In this document: piece by piece, positions 903-10,566 of the stretch
Numbering within the stretch: the first letter of the stretch is position 1
Layout of the letters: every line of letters begins with the position of its first letter
Assembly (NCBI RefSeq): GCF_001456115.1
Contig: NZ_CP013270.1
Coordinates: 1-10,566 of the forward strand
Source of the DNA: Sphingobium baderi
GTDB lineage: Bacteria > Pseudomonadota > Alphaproteobacteria > Sphingomonadales > Sphingomonadaceae
Length of the DNA stretch: 10,566 nt
Direction of reading: 5' to 3'
The notes under the pieces: model-generated
The model's input: only the letters and a program-made list of their open reading frames with translations
What the model was told of the DNA's origin: nothing
Databases searched by the model: none
Made by a program: the position numbers and the translations under genes

Positions 903-1012
903 ACAGACACGCCGGAGGGCAAAAACAGACACGCCGGAGGGTATGAACAGACACGCCGGAGGGTATGAACAGACACGCCGGAGGGTATGAACAGACACGC
1001 CGGAGGGCATCA
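903..1012 (+). repeat. oriV: Replication origin iterons, 5 x 22 bp, type A (unit 1)
   Basis: Five contiguous 22-bp direct repeats start at 903, 925, 947, 969 and 991. Each consists of the half-site ACAGAC, then ACGCCGGAGGG, then usually TATGA. The first repeat ends CAAAA and the last ends CATCA. Regular spacing of two helical turns just upstream of a Rep_3-type rep gene is the hallmark of an iteron-controlled origin, where Rep monomers bind to start replication and control copy number. I could not find a convincing DnaA box. The AT-rich part lies between the last iteron and the rep start. Confidence 0.93.
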
Positions 1013-1055
1013 CAGACAAGTTGACTACAGACATATTCGAAATTAACGTCTGTTT
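1012..1055 (+). promoter_or_regulatory. rep promoter and Rep auto-repression operator, type A (unit 1)
   Basis: Two further direct half-sites ACAGAC (1012-1017 and 1027-1032) flank a -35 box TTGACT (1021-1026). An inverted copy GTCTGT (1048-1053) lies at the presumed transcription start, so 1027-1053 is an operator with ACAGAC...GTCTGT symmetry. In Rep_3 plasmids such as pPS10, Rep dimers repress their own gene at this type of inverted half-iteron. A -10 box may be TAACGT (1044-1049, 17-bp spacing). No Shine-Dalgarno sequence precedes the ATG at 1056, and the start site would fall at or next to the ATG, suggesting a leaderless mRNA. Confidence 0.72.
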
Positions 1056-2021
1056 ATGAGCCAAATCACCGTGTCCTCTGCTGCACTCGCCCTCCGCGCC
1101 GATAAGCCGCTCACGCCTGCGATGATCTCTGCGCTGTGGGAGATCGCTGCCGTCCTCGACGAGGAACGTGTGCCTGCGAATGTGCCGAATGCGGTCTGGC
1201 TGACCATCCCCACGGCACGCCTGCGTGGGCCGGGCGCACGACAGGACAACACATGGCTTCGCGAGTGCCTTGAACGCATGGCAGGGCTGCGCCTGACCGG
1301 CCAACATCGCGGCGAAGAATGGCTGGCCGTGATGCTGGCAGAGGCCCATTTCATCGAGGGCGGGGCCAAGGTGCGCTTGCTGGTGCCGCCCGCAGGCGTC
1401 CACGCCATGCGCGGACCGGGCAACTTCGTGAAGATCGAGACGACCGCAGCACATCGGCTCCCGCCTCATGCCCGCCGTCTCTATGCGCTGCTGGCCGACC
1501 GCAAGCGCCAGCGCGAACCCTACGCCCAGTGGAGCGTAGACAACCTGCGTGGCCTGCTCGGCGTCGATGACAAGCGGTCCTATGATCGGTGGAGTGATTT
1601 TCGCACCCGCGTGCTCGATCCTGCCATTTCAGCGATCAACGACTTCGGCACGGTGCGCGTGAAGATGACCTTCATAAAGTCCGGTCGGTCGGTTTCCGCC
1701 GTCCGCTTCGAATGGCGCTGGAAAGATCCGCACGATGCCGCCGATACGGTGGTGGAGAACGAGCGCCACAGCGACGCCCGGCGTAAAGACCCACCGGAAA
1801 ACCCGGACGCCCCGCCGCTGGTCGAAGGCGATCCGGTGGTACGGGAAGGACTGGCCCAACTTGTGGCGGACCTCGGGAACTCCAAGCGGGTCCAGGAGCC
1901 CGAACAGATGGACGTGGAAACCTACCTCGCGCTCAGTGATGAGGAATGCCCTGAATACCCGATCACCGATGATGAGCGGGCATGGCTCGACATGAAACCA
2001 GTCGGCAAAGAGGCGCTATGA
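1056..2021 (+). CDS. rep: Rep_3-family replication initiator, type A (unit 1)
   Basis: A 321-aa initiator that should bind the adjacent iterons as a monomer and repress its own promoter as a dimer. Residues about 10-128 form the first winged-helix domain (LTPAMISALWEIAAVL near the start). Residues about 130-222 form the second, with the typical Rep_3 series LYALL...W-S-V-D-N-L-R-G-L-L-G-V (142-170), a recognition helix region YDRWSDFRTRVLDPAISAIN (176-195), and the closing strand SVSAVRFEWRWK (212-223). The rest (225-321) is a charged, acidic tail of unknown role. The ATG is placed by the operator ending two bases before it. The gene ends 5 bp from the convergent mobA stop. The family is clear; organism-specific naming is not. 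Confidence 0.93.
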   Translation: MSQITVSSAALALRADKPLTPAMISALWEIAAVLDEERVPANVPNAVWLTIPTARLRGPGARQDNTWLRECLERMAGLRLTGQHRGEEWLAVMLAEAHFIEGGAKVRLLVPPAGVHAMRGPGNFVKIETTAAHRLPPHARRLYALLADRKRQREPYAQWSVDNLRGLLGVDDKRSYDRWSDFRTRVLDPAISAINDFGTVRVKMTFIKSGRSVSAVRFEWRWKDPHDAADTVVENERHSDARRKDPPENPDAPPLVEGDPVVREGLAQLVADLGNSKRVQEPEQMDVETYLALSDEECPEYPITDDERAWLDMKPVGKEAL

Positions 2022-3396: not shown

Positions 3397-3403
3397 CGCA
3401 CTG

Positions 3404-3433
3404 ACTTGCGCAGCAAGTCGTAAGTGCGCACTT
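3404..3433. other. oriT: oriT, MOBQ type (unit 2)
   Basis: Same hairpin (ACTTGC 3404-3409, GCAAGT 3413-3418) and TAAGTGCG core as at 20-49. The inferred nick lies between 3428 and 3429. It lies between the unit 1 relaxase gene and the unit 2 TraD-like gene, in direct orientation with the other two oriT copies. Confidence 0.88.
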
Positions 3434-3473
3434 CGTGCTTTTCGCACTACGCCCGCCGCGCTATGCTGACAAC

Positions 3474-3909: not shown

Positions 3910-4044
3910 CCTTCGGGAAATGCCCTAGGAAGCCCGTAGAGCGCCGATAGGCACGTTTAGGCCCTCTCCCCTATCCGGTTGCTCTATCGCGGCTCTGTGG
4001 CGCTGAAATCGCCTCCTAGCCCCCCCTGATAGCCCTTCCTGCCC
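3910..4044. other. Short non-coding stretch with competing stems (unit 2)
   Basis: No gene seen. It keeps the alternative pairings described for unit 1, with GAGCGCCGATAG at 3939-3950 and its partner CTATCG...GCTC at 3984-3995. It differs from unit 1 by a single C-to-T change at 3958 until about 4018, where the unit-specific sequence begins. Confidence 0.3.
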
Positions 4045-4056
4045 TTGGAGCCTGTT

Positions 4057-4254
4057 ATGACGTTGGAGACTTCGCCCTACGATCCGACCGATCACCTCAA
4101 CACCGAGGAACGGATTGCAGCCTACCTTGAGGCTGCATGGGAAGGCGCAGACGAGTTCACGGACATGGAGAAGCGGTTTGCCTTTCTCACCAACTGTTTC
4201 GAGGTTGTCCTGCTAGCCCGGCAACGCTGGTTCCTGACCCGATTGACGCATTGA
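4057..4254 (+). CDS. Short protein resembling the N-terminus of addiction-module antidotes (unit 2)
   Basis: A 65-aa protein. Residues 4-32 (ETSPYDPTDHLNTEERIAAY, then LEAAWEGAD) resemble the start of the COG3636 'putative addiction module antidote' family, which typically opens with a P-[WFY]-D-x-x-x-[HY]-L-x-T-x-E-x-x-x-x-Y-L-x-x-A pattern. The usual family protein is about 95-105 aa and continues into a helix-turn-helix DNA-binding domain. Here the match ends at about residue 32 and no HTH follows in any frame I read. It may be a truncated antidote, a divergent regulator or an unrelated small protein. No toxin gene is adjacent. GGAG (4047-4050) six bases before the ATG sets this start over a TTG at 4045. 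Absent from unit 1, so dispensable there. Confidence 0.6.
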   Translation: MTLETSPYDPTDHLNTEERIAAYLEAAWEGADEFTDMEKRFAFLTNCFEVVLLARQRWFLTRLTH

Positions 4255-4283
4255 CCCTACCGCCCTCGCAGGCATGATGATCC

Positions 4284-4493: not shown

Positions 4494-4603
4494 ACAGACA
4501 CGCCGGAGGGCAAAAACAGACACGCCGGAGGGTATGAACAGACACGCCGGAGGGTATGAACAGACACGCCGGAGGGTATGAACAGACACGCCGGAGGGCA
4601 TCA
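4494..4603 (+). repeat. oriV: Replication origin iterons, 5 x 22 bp, type A (unit 2)
   Basis: Five iterons starting at 4494, 4516, 4538, 4560 and 4582, with the same ACAGAC half-site, order and end variants as in unit 1. The same Rep should bind both sets, so in a trimer this specificity has twice the iteron number of the unit 3 type. Confidence 0.93.
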
Positions 4604-4646: not shown

Positions 4647-5612
4647 ATGAGCCAAATCACCGTGTCCTCTGCTGCACTCGCCCTCCGCGCCGATAAGCCG
4701 CTCACGCCTGCGATGATCTCTGCGCTGTGGGAGATCGCTGCCGTCCTCGACGAGGAACGTGTGCCTGCGAATGTGCCGAATGCGGTCTGGCTGACCATCC
4801 CCACGGCACGCCTGCGTGGGCCGGGCGCACGACAGGACAACACATGGCTTCGCGAGTGCCTTGAACGCATGGCAGGGCTGCGCCTGACCGGCCAACATCG
4901 CGGCGAAGAATGGCTGGCCGTGATGCTGGCAGAGGCCCATTTCATCGAGGGCGGGGCCAAGGTGCGCTTGCTGGTGCCGCCCGCAGGCGTCCACGCCATG
5001 CGCGGACCGGGCAACTTCGTGAAGATCGAGACGACCGCAGCACATCGGCTCCCGCCTCATGCCCGCCGTCTCTATGCGCTGCTGGCCGACCGCAAGCGCC
5101 AGCGCGAACCCTACGCCCAGTGGAGCGTAGACAACCTGCGTGGCCTGCTCGGCGTCGATGACAAGCGGTCCTATGATCGGTGGAGTGATTTTCGCACCCG
5201 CGTGCTCGATCCTGCCATTTCAGCGATCAACGACTTCGGCACGGTGCGCGTGAAGATGACCTTCATAAAGTCCGGTCGGTCGGTTTCCGCCGTCCGCTTC
5301 GAATGGCGCTGGAAAGATCCGCACGATGCCGCCGATACGGTGGTGGAGAACGAGCGCCACAGCGACGCCCGGCGTAAAGACCCACCGGAAAACCCGGACG
5401 CCCCGCCGCTGGTCGAAGGCGATCCGGTGGTACGGGAAGGACTGGCCCAACTTGTGGCGGACCTCGGGAACTCCAAGCGGGTCCAGGAGCCCGAACAGAT
5501 GGACGTGGAAACCTACCTCGCGCTCAGTGATGAGGAATGCCCTGAATACCCGATCACCGATGATGAGCGGGCATGGCTCGACATGAAACCAGTCGGCAAA
5601 GAGGCGCTATGA
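4647..5612 (+). CDS. rep: Rep_3-family replication initiator, type A (unit 2)
   Basis: Protein of 321 aa identical to the unit 1 initiator, with both winged-helix domains and the type A recognition region (residues 177-192 include D177, R178, D181, T184, R185, D188 and S192). No base difference from the unit 1 gene was noticed. The two copies raise the dose of this initiator relative to the unit 3 initiator, although both would be auto-repressed by the same operator type. Confidence 0.93.
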   Translation: MSQITVSSAALALRADKPLTPAMISALWEIAAVLDEERVPANVPNAVWLTIPTARLRGPGARQDNTWLRECLERMAGLRLTGQHRGEEWLAVMLAEAHFIEGGAKVRLLVPPAGVHAMRGPGNFVKIETTAAHRLPPHARRLYALLADRKRQREPYAQWSVDNLRGLLGVDDKRSYDRWSDFRTRVLDPAISAINDFGTVRVKMTFIKSGRSVSAVRFEWRWKDPHDAADTVVENERHSDARRKDPPENPDAPPLVEGDPVVREGLAQLVADLGNSKRVQEPEQMDVETYLALSDEECPEYPITDDERAWLDMKPVGKEAL

Positions 5613-6937: not shown

Positions 6938-6994
6938 CGACTTCCTTCCATTTGGTGCCCAACGGGGTTGCAGGGGTCGCCCCCTGCCGCACTG

Positions 6995-7024
6995 ACTTGC
7001 GCAGCAAGTCGTAAGTGCGCACTT
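6995..7024. other. oriT: oriT, MOBQ type (unit 3)
   Basis: Third copy of the hairpin (6995-7000 with 7004-7009) plus TAAGTGCG core. The inferred nick lies between 7019 and 7020. It is identical to the other two, so any of the three relaxase copies should act on it. Confidence 0.88.
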
Positions 7025-7064
7025 CGTGCTTTTCGCACTACGCCCGCCGCGCTATGCTGACAAC

Positions 7065-7322
7065 ATGGAAACGACCGCACGGCCCACCATCGACCAGAAA
7101 ATTGCCCGCAAGGAAGCCGAGCTTGCCCGGCTGCGTCAGCAGGGCCGGGCGCTCGAAACCGGCCAGAAGATCGTTCTCGGCGGCCTGCTCCTGAACGCCG
7201 CCAGGAACGACCCGGCGATCCGCAAATGGCTGATCGCGGAACTCCCCTCGGCTGTGACCCGCGAGGTGGACCGCAAGCGCCTCGCCCCCATCGTCGCGGA
7301 ACTGGTGAAGCTCGATGGCTAA
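7065..7322 (+). CDS. TraD/MobC-like mobilization accessory protein (unit 3)
   Basis: Third identical copy of the 85-aa accessory protein with the helical N-terminus and the GQKIVLGGLLLNAA segment. The ATG at 7065 is preferred over an in-frame GTG at 7026. Identity to the other copies contrasts with the diverged rep of this unit, showing that the transfer and replication modules of this unit have different histories. Confidence 0.75.
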   Translation: METTARPTIDQKIARKEAELARLRQQGRALETGQKIVLGGLLLNAARNDPAIRKWLIAELPSAVTREVDRKRLAPIVAELVKLDG

Positions 7323-7500
7323 GGCCCACGGAGTTCGCCGCCTGACCCCTGCCGGGCTGGTCTTGGCCGGGGCCGTCACGGGCGCCGCGATAGGCGGGGT
7401 GCTTGGGCTGATGCGCTGGCAGCAGGATCGGCAGCCCTCTCCCCCCCGCCCGGAACCGGAGGCACCAAAGGCGCAAGGTGACAGGGTTATAATTCGATGA
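7315..7500 (+). CDS. Small glycine-zipper membrane protein (unit 3)
   Basis: Third identical copy of the 61-aa protein: basic start, one membrane helix with a G19/G23/G27/G31 zipper, Pro-rich tail. It overlaps the end of the TraD-like gene by 8 bases. Function unknown. Confidence 0.7.
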   Translation: MAKAHGVRRLTPAGLVLAGAVTGAAIGGVLGLMRWQQDRQPSPPRPEPEAPKAQGDRVIIR

Positions 7501-7635
7501 CCTTCGGGAAATGCCCTAGGAAGCCCGTAGAGCGCCGATAGGCACGTTTAGGCCCTCTCCCCTATCCGGTTGCTCTATCGCGGCTCTGTGGCGCTGAAAT
7601 CGCCTCCTAGCCCCCCCTGATAGCCCTTCCTGCCC
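7501..7635. other. Short non-coding stretch with competing stems (unit 3)
   Basis: No gene seen. Identical to the unit 2 stretch, with the alternative stems at 7530-7541 and 7575-7586. Confidence 0.3.
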
Positions 7636-7647
7636 TTGGAGCCTGTT

Positions 7648-7845
7648 ATGACGTTGGAGACTTCGCCCTACGATCCGACCGATCACCTCAACACCGAGGA
7701 ACGGATTGCAGCCTACCTTGAGGCTGCATGGGAAGGCGCAGACGAGTTCACGGACATGGAGAAGCGGTTTGCCTTTCTCACCAACTGTTTCGAGGTTGTC
7801 CTGCTAGCCCGGCAACGCTGGTTCCTGACCCGATTGACGCATTGA
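7648..7845 (+). CDS. Short protein resembling the N-terminus of addiction-module antidotes (unit 3)
   Basis: Identical second copy of the 65-aa protein at 4057-4254. GGAG at 7638-7641 precedes the ATG by six bases and favours this start over TTG at 7636. The antidote-like pattern covers residues 4-32 only; residues 33-65 (FTDMEKRFAFLTN onward) match no domain I recognise. No partner toxin is in this unit. Confidence 0.6.
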   Translation: MTLETSPYDPTDHLNTEERIAAYLEAAWEGADEFTDMEKRFAFLTNCFEVVLLARQRWFLTRLTH

Positions 7846-7874
7846 CCCTACCGCCCTCGCAGGCATGATGATCC

Positions 7875-7954
7875 TGCTGCGGCCCTTTTTCTCAACTTCC
7901 CCTGCGTGCGGGGGATTGGGGGTGCAGGTAACGATCCCCCTTGGGGCCGCAGCA
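7875..7954. other. Structured GC-rich element (unit 3)
   Basis: Third copy of the element with the 11-bp inverted repeat (7875-7885 with 7944-7954) and the inner GGGGGAT stem. It matches the unit 2 copy. Beyond it, 7846-8238 contains only the palindrome, the iterons and the operator. Confidence 0.5.
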
Positions 7955-8014
7955 ACCCTCCCGACATGACGCGCGCCGCGACCAGCGGCGCTCCATTTTC
8001 AATCGGTGTCCCCC

Positions 8015-8069
8015 GTCAGTGTGAGTGTCAGTGTCAGTGTCTGTTCCAGACTCTGCCACTCACACTGAC
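8015..8069. repeat. Palindrome beside the iterons (unit 3)
   Basis: Same as the unit 2 palindrome (left arm 8015-8031, right arm 8053-8069 with the one mismatch). Here it stands before type B iterons, so the same palindrome sequence is used with both iteron types. Confidence 0.78.
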
Positions 8070-8084
8070 ACTAGGGGGCTAAAA

Positions 8085-8194
8085 ATGGAGACGCCGGAGG
8101 GTAAAAATGGAGACGCCGGAGGGTATGAGTGGAGACGCCGGAGGGTATGAGTGGAGACGCCGGAGGGTATGAGTGGAGACGCCGGAGGGGTGTG
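8085..8194 (+). repeat. oriV: Replication origin iterons, 5 x 22 bp, type B (unit 3)
   Basis: Five iterons starting at 8085, 8107, 8129, 8151 and 8173. Repeats 3-5 begin GTGGAG and repeats 1-2 begin ATGGAG, in place of ACAGAC. The following ACGCCGGAGGG is the same as in type A and repeats 3 and 4 also keep TATGA. Thus the change is confined to the first six bases of the repeat. The last repeat ends GGTGTG. Confidence 0.93.
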
Positions 8195-8238
8195 TGGAGA
8201 TATTGACAGTGGATAGACACTTTTTATAAACTCCACTA
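8194..8238 (+). promoter_or_regulatory. rep promoter and operator, type B (unit 3)
   Basis: A near-consensus promoter, TTGACA (8203-8208), 16-bp spacer, TATAAA (8225-8230). Half-sites GTGGAG (8194-8199) and GTGGAT (8209-8214) are direct, and CTCCAC (8231-8236) is inverted, ending two bases before the ATG as in type A. All three half-sites have changed with the iterons. The predicted transcription start (8237-8239) falls at the ATG and no Shine-Dalgarno sequence exists, so the mRNA should be leaderless. The promoter looks stronger than the type A one. Confidence 0.8.
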
Positions 8239-9204
8239 ATGGAGCAAATAGCCGTCTCGTCCGCTGCGCTCGCACTCCGAGCAGAAAAGCCGCTCACTCC
8301 GGCTATGATCTCAACGCTGTGGGAGATTGCGGCTGTCCTTGATGAGGATCGCATACCTGCCAATGTGCCCAACTCGGTCTGGCTATCGATCCCCACGGCG
8401 CGCTTGCGTGGCCCCAATGCAAGGCAGGACAATGTCTGGCTCCGCGAGTGCTTGGAGCGCATGATTGGCCTCAAGCTGACCGGCCAGCACCGCAATGACG
8501 AATGGGGCGCAGTGCTGGTGGCCGAATGGCACATCACCGAAGGCGGATCGAAGGCCCGTATCCTGATCCCGCCTGCAGGCGTCCACGCGCTGCGCAGCAC
8601 CGGAAATTTCGTGAAGATCGAGACGACAGCGGCACATCGGCTCCCGCCCCATGCCCGCCGCCTCTATGCTCTGCTGGCCGACCGCAAGCGCCAGCGCGAA
8701 CCCTACGCCCAGTGGAGCGTAGACAACCTGCGTGGCCTGCTCGGCGTCGATGATAAACGGTCCTATGAGGTTTGGTCACAGTTCCGAAAATGGGTTCTGA
8801 CCCCCGCCATTGAGGCCATCAACGACTTCGGCACGGTGCGGGTGAAGATGACCACCGTGAAGTCCGGCCGGTCGGTTTCCGCCGTCCGCTTCGAATGGCG
8901 CTGGAAAGATCCGCACGATGCCGCCGATACGGTGGTGGAGAACGAGCGCCACAGCGACGCCCGGCGTAAAGACCCGCCGGAAAACCCGGATGCCCCGCCG
9001 CTGGTCGAAGGCGATCCGGTAGTGCGGGAAGGACTGGCCCAGCTTGTAGCGGACCTCGGGAACTCCAAGCGAGTCCAGGAGCCCGAACAGATGGACGTGG
9101 AAACCTACCTCGCGCTCAGGGATGAGGACCGTCCTGAATACCCGATCACCGATGATGAGCGGGCATGGCTCGACATGAGGCCGGTCGGAAACGAGGAACT
9201 GTGA
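8239..9204 (+). CDS. rep: Rep_3-family replication initiator, type B (unit 3)
   Basis: A 321-aa initiator, same length and architecture as type A but a different allele. Most changes lie in winged-helix domain 1 (residues 2-121, with many silent changes too). Residues 122-176 are identical. Seven substitutions cluster at 177-192 (D177E, R178V, D181Q, T184K, R185W, D188T, S192E), the expected recognition helix of domain 2. F206T and I207V follow, then 208-293 are identical and six changes lie near the C-terminus. It sits beside its own iteron type, so it probably recognises GTGGAG rather than ACAGAC. It ends 4 bp from the mobA stop. The family is clear; the specificity is inferred. Confidence 0.93.
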   Translation: MEQIAVSSAALALRAEKPLTPAMISTLWEIAAVLDEDRIPANVPNSVWLSIPTARLRGPNARQDNVWLRECLERMIGLKLTGQHRNDEWGAVLVAEWHITEGGSKARILIPPAGVHALRSTGNFVKIETTAAHRLPPHARRLYALLADRKRQREPYAQWSVDNLRGLLGVDDKRSYEVWSQFRKWVLTPAIEAINDFGTVRVKMTTVKSGRSVSAVRFEWRWKDPHDAADTVVENERHSDARRKDPPENPDAPPLVEGDPVVREGLAQLVADLGNSKRVQEPEQMDVETYLALRDEDRPEYPITDDERAWLDMRPVGNEEL

Positions 9205-9208
9205 GGGG

Positions 9209-10528
9209 CTAGTCCCCGACCCCTTGCCCCTGATTTCCAAGACCGCGCTGGGCCTGCCGCTGCTTGCGCCTGACCTGTTCCTGCTGCTTCAGTTCGGCCC
9301 GGGCAGCGGGAAGCCGAGCGGCCCAATCTGGGCGTTCGCGCTCTAGTTTCCGCTCTGCCTTGGCTTCGTTTCCAAAGCCCCGGAAATAGCCCCGGACACG
9401 CTCAAGCCGGTCGCGAAGCGTCTTCTCTCGCTTCGCCCTCCACTCCTTGATGCCCTTCGCTACCTGCTGCCAAGCCGCCTCGGCCTTCTCGTAGGACCCT
9501 CGCTGAAACCTGCCGAAAAGTCCCGTTGGCGCCTTCGGGCGCTGCTCGTCATGCTTCCATTCACGCTGCTGCCGCTCGCGCGAAATCTCCCGGATTTGGC
9601 CATCCAGCTTGTACTCAAGGAACTGGCTGCGCCGGTTCGCATTGGCGATCAGCTCCTTCTTGCGGGCGTCCCATGCCTTCACCAGCTCGGCCGCCGGCAT
9701 CGCTTCGACCTGGCGCACCTTTTCCCGGCGCTCGCGCTCTGCCTTCAGGTCGATGATCTCGGCTGTCAGCGCCTTCCGCTGGGCATTGTTCGCCGCCACC
9801 TGCCGGTTGCCATCGGCGCGATCGCTGACACGGCCACGCCGCTCCATCTCCGAGGCCGTGGGGCCAAGATGGGTGGTCGCTTCCCGGTCGATGCCCTGCG
9901 CCGCAAGGCTGCGCGCATCGATCCGCTCGGCCCGCCCCGCTTTAGCCAGGACAGAATTGGCCGTCTGTTCCCAAAGCCCCCGGACCGCCTTCACCTCGTC
10001 GGCAGCAGGGCCAAGCCCCTGTGCCCGGCGGGCCTTGTCCGATAGCTCGATGCTGGCCTTGTCCCCCATGACCGGCTCCCCCCTCTCCCCCCGGCTCACC
10101 TGCCGGGTGGTGGTGAGGATGTGCGCATGGTGATTCCGGTTGTCGCCTTCCCGGTCGGGCTGGTGGACGCACACGTCCACGGCCACGCCGTACCGGCGGG
10201 CCAGTTCGGCACCAAAGGACAGAGCGAGTTCGTGCCGCTGTCCCGCGTCCAGTTCGGACGGCAGCGCTACGATCCACTCGCGAGCGGTGCGGGCATCCTT
10301 CCGCTTCTCCGCGACCTCCGCCGCATTCCACAGCGCGGCCCGGTCGAGCGTTTCGCCATCCGCCGTGATGATGTCCGCCGACACCACCCCGCCCTTGCGG
10401 GTGTAGTCATGGACGAGGCCGGTGCGCTCATCGACCAACGCCGCGCCAGCCCGATACGCCGCAGCCGCAACGGACGAACGTCCGGCGGTGCGCGATATCG
10501 GCTTGGTGCTGGCGTGGTAGATCGCCAC
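9209..10528 (-). CDS. mobA: MobA/MobL-family MOBQ relaxase (unit 3)
   Basis: Third copy of the 439-aa relaxase. It differs from the others by E401D and a few silent changes near the C-terminus and uses TAG rather than TAA as stop. These changes all lie within about 150 bp of the rep end, as if carried in with the rep allele. The relaxase domain (Tyr25, E84, H122/H134/H136) is unchanged. GTG start with ribosome site at the complement of 10532-10540. Across the joined window ends it faces the oriT at 20. Confidence 0.94.
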   Translation of the reverse strand: MAIYHASTKPISRTAGRSSVAAAAYRAGAALVDERTGLVHDYTRKGGVVSADIITADGETLDRAALWNAAEVAEKRKDARTAREWIVALPSELDAGQRHELALSFGAELARRYGVAVDVCVHQPDREGDNRNHHAHILTTTRQVSRGERGEPVMGDKASIELSDKARRAQGLGPAADEVKAVRGLWEQTANSVLAKAGRAERIDARSLAAQGIDREATTHLGPTASEMERRGRVSDRADGNRQVAANNAQRKALTAEIIDLKAERERREKVRQVEAMPAAELVKAWDARKKELIANANRRSQFLEYKLDGQIREISRERQQREWKHDEQRPKAPTGLFGRFQRGSYEKAEAAWQQVAKGIKEWRAKREKTLRDRLERVRGYFRGFGNEAKAERKLERERPDWAARLPAARAELKQQEQVRRKQRQAQRGLGNQGQGVGD

Positions 10529-10566
10529 CGACTTCCTTCCATTTGGTGCCCAACGGGGTTGCAGGG

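Follow-up and report, generated by a model that had tools for sequence, protein, structure and literature searches.

How can a plasmid initiator and the many DNA sites that it recognises change together? The question is raised by contig C7 of Sphingobium baderi (RefSeq GCF_001456115.1, NZ_CP013270.1), the whole of which, 10,566 nucleotides (nt), was analysed and is called the window here; its genome comprises 4.58 Mb in 9 contigs. The window is made of three head-to-tail units of 3384, 3591 and 3591 nt, each carrying a mobilisation gene (MobA/MobL by Pfam in unit 3), an array of 22-nt tandem iterons and, downstream of it, rep, which codes for the initiator Rep. Rep is the same protein in units 1 and 2. 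It is very probable that units 1 and 2 on one side and unit 3 on the other represent natural alleles of a single iteron-type origin that differ in specificity, served by a RepE-like initiator with two winged-helix domains (WH1 and WH2), and that the recognition helix of WH2 and the short DNA boxes were switched together.

The 22-bp iteron contains a 6-bp box and an 11-bp part. Of these, only the box recurs in the rep promoter, twice directly and once inverted, the inverted copy being an operator half-site in common with the iterons. The three arrays, with five copies per unit, were also recovered by Tandem Repeats Finder. An earlier note, made from the letters alone, had claimed that all eight Rep half-sites of unit 3 (five in iterons, two direct and one inverted) moved away from ACAGAC, the box of units 1 and 2, that the adjoining core was kept, and that Rep acquired seven substitutions in residues 177-192. 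All of this was borne out: the change is present at all eight positions, the 11-bp remainder ACGCCGGAGGG is unchanged in 15/15 iterons of the three units, and the count of seven is exact (residues 177, 178, 181, 184, 185, 188 and 192). The constant base changes lie at box positions 2, 3 and 6, and bases 4 (G) and 5 (A) are common to both box types. The Rep proteins of units 1 and 3 differ at 42 residues, 27 of them in residues 1-126; within WH2 (136-225), seven of the nine differences fall inside 177-192, the stretch that the earlier note had named beforehand (hypergeometric P 4.5e-5). The predicted unit 3 promoter sits among its three half-sites, which is the arrangement expected for autorepression; the scan that found it gave no consensus promoter match in unit 2.

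Structural comparison bears on the stretch that carries the seven substitutions. WH2 matches the Pfam domain Rep3_C (PF21205) above the gathering score, with E values of 8.4e-14 for unit 3 and 2.4e-14 for unit 1. In an AlphaFold2 model of the unit 3 Rep, two winged-helix domains with the RepE fold are present and a helix spans residues 179-197; the mean predicted local distance difference test score (pLDDT) is 72, and in ten-residue blocks it is 79-94 over residues 131-220 and 92-94 over 171-190. The best solved fold matches are the RepE-iteron, RepE-operator and pi-iteron complexes, and WH2 alone superposes on RepE at 1.9 A over 91 residues, in agreement with the earlier claim that 177-192 holds the WH2 recognition helix. 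Residue 185 aligns with RepE residue 207 in both the profile alignment and the fold-comparison ranges, and by the former the RepE counterparts of 178, 181 and 185 are R, D and R. In ori2 of the F plasmid, iterons and inverted operator share one half-site, which for RepE is TGTGACA; this gives G4, A5 and C6, the same as in unit 1. An arginine over the G opposite C6 would fit this half-site, judging from the alignment rather than from a computed contact. RepE likewise has two winged-helix domains (1REP, 2Z9O), of which WH2 contacts part of the iteron; according to the available part of a review (PMC4980987), the bases contacted are GTG of the top strand and GtCA of the bottom strand. The two initiators differ in that identity is only 15-17% in whole-model fold alignments, and in that the window plasmid combines, on a single backbone, natural alleles whose half-sites differ.

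The earlier note had also suggested looking for further paired iteron and Rep alleles in related plasmids, and these exist: the consensus box covaries with the helix over 18 replicons, so that the joint change of box and WH2 helix is seen both in the window and across its relatives. The set comprises two replicons of the window, two on contigs C8 and C9 of the same genome, five plasmid records, one from genome contigs and eight from other genomes. Excluded before counting were L105, in which no iterons were seen, L049, whose Rep was matched only in part and whose upstream region was not read, and the duplicates L011/L046/L050 (of pDC10), L092/L108 (of L015) and L101 (of L112). The consensus boxes are ACAGAC, GTGGAG, ATGGAG, GTGGAC, ATGGAC, GGATAC, GACTAC, GACTAG, GACAAC and GCGGAA; the iterons of L103 are degenerate and were read by eye, and the boxes of L009 are mixed (three AGCTAG, two GACTAG, one AACTAG) with G at base 6 in 6/6. 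Box base 6 follows from residue 185 by itself (R-C, W-G, Y-A), without exception in 18/18 replicons and in 16/16 non-redundant ones, and the runner-up among the variable Rep columns reaches 0.48. Residue 181 is the best predictor of bases 2, 3 and 4 (N-ACT, T-ACA, Q-TGG, A-GAT, D-C[A/G]G). We shuffled 16 non-redundant rows over 225 Rep columns, leaving out L103 and L107 because they are near-copies of L013: the observed value was reached in 0/2000 shuffles for base 6 and in 0, 4 and 2 of 2000 for bases 2, 3 and 4. When L009 is read alternatively, 0/1000 shuffles reach any of the four base values, and if 13 rows are used, 1/1000 shuffles reach the value for base 6 and 0/1000 that for base 2. 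Rules taken from the 14 non-window rows predict bases 2-4 and 6 of unit 3 and bases 2, 4 and 6 of unit 1. The cleanest pair is L014 and L111, whose boxes are ATGGAC and ATGGAG and whose Reps differ over residues 1-204 only by V27I, S171A, R174K, A175S, A177E, K184R and R185W. The inverted operator copy of L111 matches its own box at 5/6 letters only, as if partly decayed. We infer from these patterns that base 6 of the box is recognised by residue 185 (Arg for C, Trp for G, Tyr for A), and bases 2-4 by residue 181 together with 178. The earlier view that six bases carry specificity is too coarse, since base 5 is A in 18/18 consensus boxes, and bases 2-4 and 6 track separate residues. Threonine occupies residue 185 in 5/126 Reps, e.g., P0059 and P0062.

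Promoter segments were compared with the boxes as well. The own box is found in the promoter segment at 5-6 of 6 letters in 18/18 replicons for the direct sites (exact in 13) and in 16/18 for the inverted site (exact in 11), and boxes of other plasmids average 3.9-4.7 and 3.6-4.6 letters, respectively.

Several results weigh against a matched switch of specificity. The box of another plasmid is exact in 7/18 promoter segments for the direct and 4/18 for the inverted sites, and promoter matching alone is therefore weak evidence; the inverted sites of L009 and L012 are poor (4/6 letters). The predicted template modelling score of the model, which is of Rep without DNA, is only 0.54, and the sequence match to RepE is not significant alone (E 0.14, 1REP). 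The base-6 rule is broken by one of six L106 iterons (GACTAA) and by one promoter copy of unit 3 (GTGGAT). Residue 181 explains base 3 incompletely, and base 2 as well if L009 is taken as AGCTAG; the 14-row rules mispredict from D181 a G at base 3 of unit 1, where A is observed; and with 13 rows bases 3 and 4 are reached by 33 and 28 of 1000 shuffles. The shuffles also ignore relatedness, and several branches of the tree are weak. When the tree is built without the helix columns, at least seven changes are required for residue 185 and at least seven for base 6; independent pairs on well-supported branches agree in 3/3 cases (P 0.25), and with only three pairs this relatedness-aware test cannot reach significance alone.

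The history of unit 3 bears on how its allele is to be understood. Units 2 and 3 show zero differences in the 1109 nt before the iterons (6976-8084) and zero again after 9347 (9348-10566), so that the diverged tract between them is sharply bounded; it begins at the first changed box and stops 143 nt past rep. Synonymous divergence is uneven along rep (0.63 in codons 1-126, 0.19 in 127-173, 0.44 in 174-212, 0 in 213-245 and 0.24 in 246-321), and the tract looks like a mosaic from a diverged relative, imported or converted. The earlier reading as a matched re-specification stands in that box and helix are matched, and falls short in that the change looks imported rather than made stepwise at the locus. 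Such an import might be neutral, a diverged rep having been exchanged by recombination, with the match of box and helix due to shared descent and specificity unchanged; the whole tract is indeed diverged, synonymous sites included, and L013, L103 and L107 share helix and box by descent. We nevertheless regard this as improbable, given that residue 185 and base 6 change repeatedly on the helix-free tree and agree in every row, that L014 and L111 are little different outside the helix, and that residue 185 lies far above all other columns. More improbable still is that WH1 and the 11-bp half carry most of the specificity and that the change of the box is secondary. The 27 of 42 substitutions in residues 1-126 would favour it, as would variation of the second iteron half among more distant plasmids, but this half is identical in units 1 and 3, pDC10, pHAE2, L015 and L110. 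Codons 1-126 (nonsynonymous 0.135 against synonymous 0.630) look like ordinary purifying divergence, and with this constraint and an unchanged presumed WH1 half of the iteron the WH1 substitutions need no specificity reading; the earlier inclusion of first-domain changes in the switch is not upheld.

A separate matter is whether both alleles sit on one molecule. Assemblers often concatenate small plasmids, and the three-unit contig could have been assembled from monomers that exist separately; units 1 and 2 are nearly the same, and the contig ends, if joined, are seamless and form one more unit boundary. On the other hand, multimers of such small plasmids are also common, and unit 1 is 207 nt shorter than unit 2 and differs from it at scattered bases, so the contig is not one monomer repeated. 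We consider the two possibilities evenly balanced, and the specificity claim is unaffected by either.

Rep columns were also scanned against iteron positions 7-11 with WH1 as candidate specificity carrier, and no clear rule emerged: the normalised mutual information was 0.85 for residue 123 with position 10 and 0.79 for residue 10 with position 10, and at most 0.67 for the best at other positions. N or T at residue 123 pairs with C or another base at position 10, which possibly reflects contact or descent.

Under a matched switch, and by comparison with RepE, WH2 would read the box in the iterons for initiation and in the operator for autorepression, and WH1 would read the other iteron half. 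As WH2 would read every copy of the box, a switch would have to alter its recognition helix and all box copies together. Homologous recombination most likely brought in the helix and boxes of unit 3 as a single tract, leaving the mobilisation backbone unchanged. Each Rep would be expected to ignore the iterons and promoter of the other type, and separate replicons of the two types could therefore coexist. The window genome holds four box types, ACAGAC and GTGGAG (C7), GGATAC (C8) and GACTAG/AGCTAG (C9), and genome G777 has GTGGAC and ATGGAG on two contigs; in both genomes with members on more than one contig (2/2), no box is common to two contigs. This distribution fits compatibility by box, as an agreement rather than a test. 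The unit 3 allele seems to occur outside C7 too: protein P0003, listed for 13 contigs of up to 7209 nt, is the unit 3 Rep with another C-terminal end.

A wider set of 132 aligned Reps has 59 distinct strings at residues 177-192. Their 8646 pairs include 706 that reach 97% identity or more outside the helix (residues 23-170 and 210-240), of which 110 show six or more differences within the 16 residues 177-192; the pairs are non-independent and many sequences come from metagenome assemblies. One Rep, P0002, differs from that of unit 1 at just 10 residues, of which 8 lie in 178-192, and we predict its iterons to carry [A/G]TGGAC. Tentatively, and with a little less than even confidence, we propose that the WH2 helix is a swappable cassette, that recombination moves short helix cassettes with matching boxes between near-identical initiators to give an open series of mutually compatible origins, and that a nearly one-to-one code, in which residue 185 and base 6 form the firmest pair, may hold for other Rep_3 proteins as well. 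In a second Rep group (pAES2, pMG160, pYAN-2, WTD-1 p5, pHAE1, pWKS1, SCSIO p10, pZA1003 and pAt8; pTK8 and pMOS7 were not used), R/K-C and F/D-G pair at one half-site column in 9/9 records. This extension is suggestive only, because there are about six distinct types, the helices were read by eye and the register was picked after the data were seen. When decoded by hand, the N-terminal over-translations of P0004, P0078 and P0122 (all R185) give boxes whose base 6 is C or T, and P0123 (R185) gives an xCGGAC-like box only if the operator sits 3 nt before the start codon. Protein scans of a viral contig collection gave no relatives, and a pattern scan of it gave 37 stretches with three spaced GGAGGG; genus searches of three genomes yielded no new material.

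Iteron identity has long been regarded as setting plasmid incompatibility. To our knowledge, the initiator residues that choose particular bases are known only from a few structures. Geminivirus Rep is an unrelated rolling-circle Rep and offers an analogy only. Close relatives there often carry different iterons, and these interact with the cognate Rep (available part of PMC12548392). In the same Rep group as the window, pHAE2 of Paracoccus haeundaensis has 65% identity and five iterons upstream of rep, but its box is GACTAC; the accessible portion of its description (PMC3832669) states that iterons set incompatibility and contains no residue-base relation; for another Rep subgroup its authors infer that a difference in iterons points to separate incompatibility groups. 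Plasmid pDC10 of Rhizorhabdus wittichii DC-6 has the same architecture, 83% Rep identity and the same 11-bp iteron half, but has the box GGATAC and the helix DRWQALKVRVLDP; C8 equals the pDC10 sequence upstream of rep. Pseudomonas REx-C/REx-R, in the part of PMC5304414 available, also shows natural exchange of replicon modules with incompatibility following one module, but its control module has a putative antisense RNA and the modules lack mutual specificity, whereas initiator and sites are matched in the window. Within the accessible text of the matches listed in the open-licence literature, we found no residue-base code for Rep_3 initiators, and the available parts of PMC4081077, PMC12663086 and PMC4447125 give no contact residues or code.

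Table 1. Positions of origin and Rep features along the 10,566-nt window
Feature	Coordinates	Strand	Basis
Unit 1 iteron array, ACAGAC-ACGCCGGAGGG x5 (starts 903, 925, 947, 969, 991)	903..1007	+	repeat scan and sequence reading
Unit 1 promoter half-sites: direct 1012-1017 and 1027-1032, inverted 1048-1053	1012..1053	+	
Rep of unit 1	1056..2021	+	
Unit 2 iteron array, ACAGAC-ACGCCGGAGGG x5 (starts 4494, 4516, 4538, 4560, 4582)	4494..4598	+	
Unit 2 promoter half-sites: direct starts 4603, 4618; inverted start 4639			
Rep of unit 2	4647..5612	+	
Imperfect inverted repeat, 21-nt arms, 5' of iterons, identical in units 2 and 3	8015..8069	+	
Tract diverged from unit 2	8085..9347	+	unit 2/unit 3 comparison
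Unit 3 iteron array, 5 x 22 nt, [A/G]TGGAG-ACGCCGGAGGG (ATGGAG at 8085, 8107; GTGGAG at 8129, 8151, 8173)	8085..8189	+	
Unit 3 direct promoter half-site GTGGAG, immediately 5' of predicted -35	8194..8199	+	
Unit 3 rep promoter, predicted, TTGACA-18-TAAACT	8203..8232	+	consensus match only, 10/12
Unit 3 direct promoter half-site GTGGAT, immediately 3' of predicted -35	8209..8214	+	
Unit 3 inverted operator half-site (CTCCAC on +), 2 nt 5' of start codon	8231..8236	-	
Rep of unit 3, 321 amino acids, two winged-helix domains	8239..9204	+	
Codons 177-192, WH2 recognition helix; residues 178, 181, 185 track box	8767..8814	+	

Other features of the window lie outside the switch. The hairpin upstream of the unit 3 iterons is made of GTGTC/AGTGTC repeats, and a comparable hairpin of different sequence occurs in related plasmids. 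Units 2 (4026-4256) and 3 (7617-7847) contain a segment of about 207 nt, including a small open reading frame, that is absent from unit 1 at 642-660, where the flanks differ too. Adjoining the mobilisation genes, the stretch 6989-7028 (also near 14-53 and 3398-3437) is 95-97% identical over 36-40 nt to 19 plasmid records from Sinorhizobium, Shinella, Rhizobium, Agrobacterium and Aminobacter, and is probably a transfer origin.

That iterons set incompatibility is already known; new here are natural alleles in which sites and initiator match, the relation of residue to base, and a hypervariable helix. With many natural helix and box pairs, some of them nearly minimal, the question of which residue reads which base becomes testable by single-residue and single-base exchanges. 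If the relation is true, the compatibility or incompatibility of small plasmids would be predictable from sequence, and recombination may be a route by which a plasmid escapes incompatibility with its own kin.
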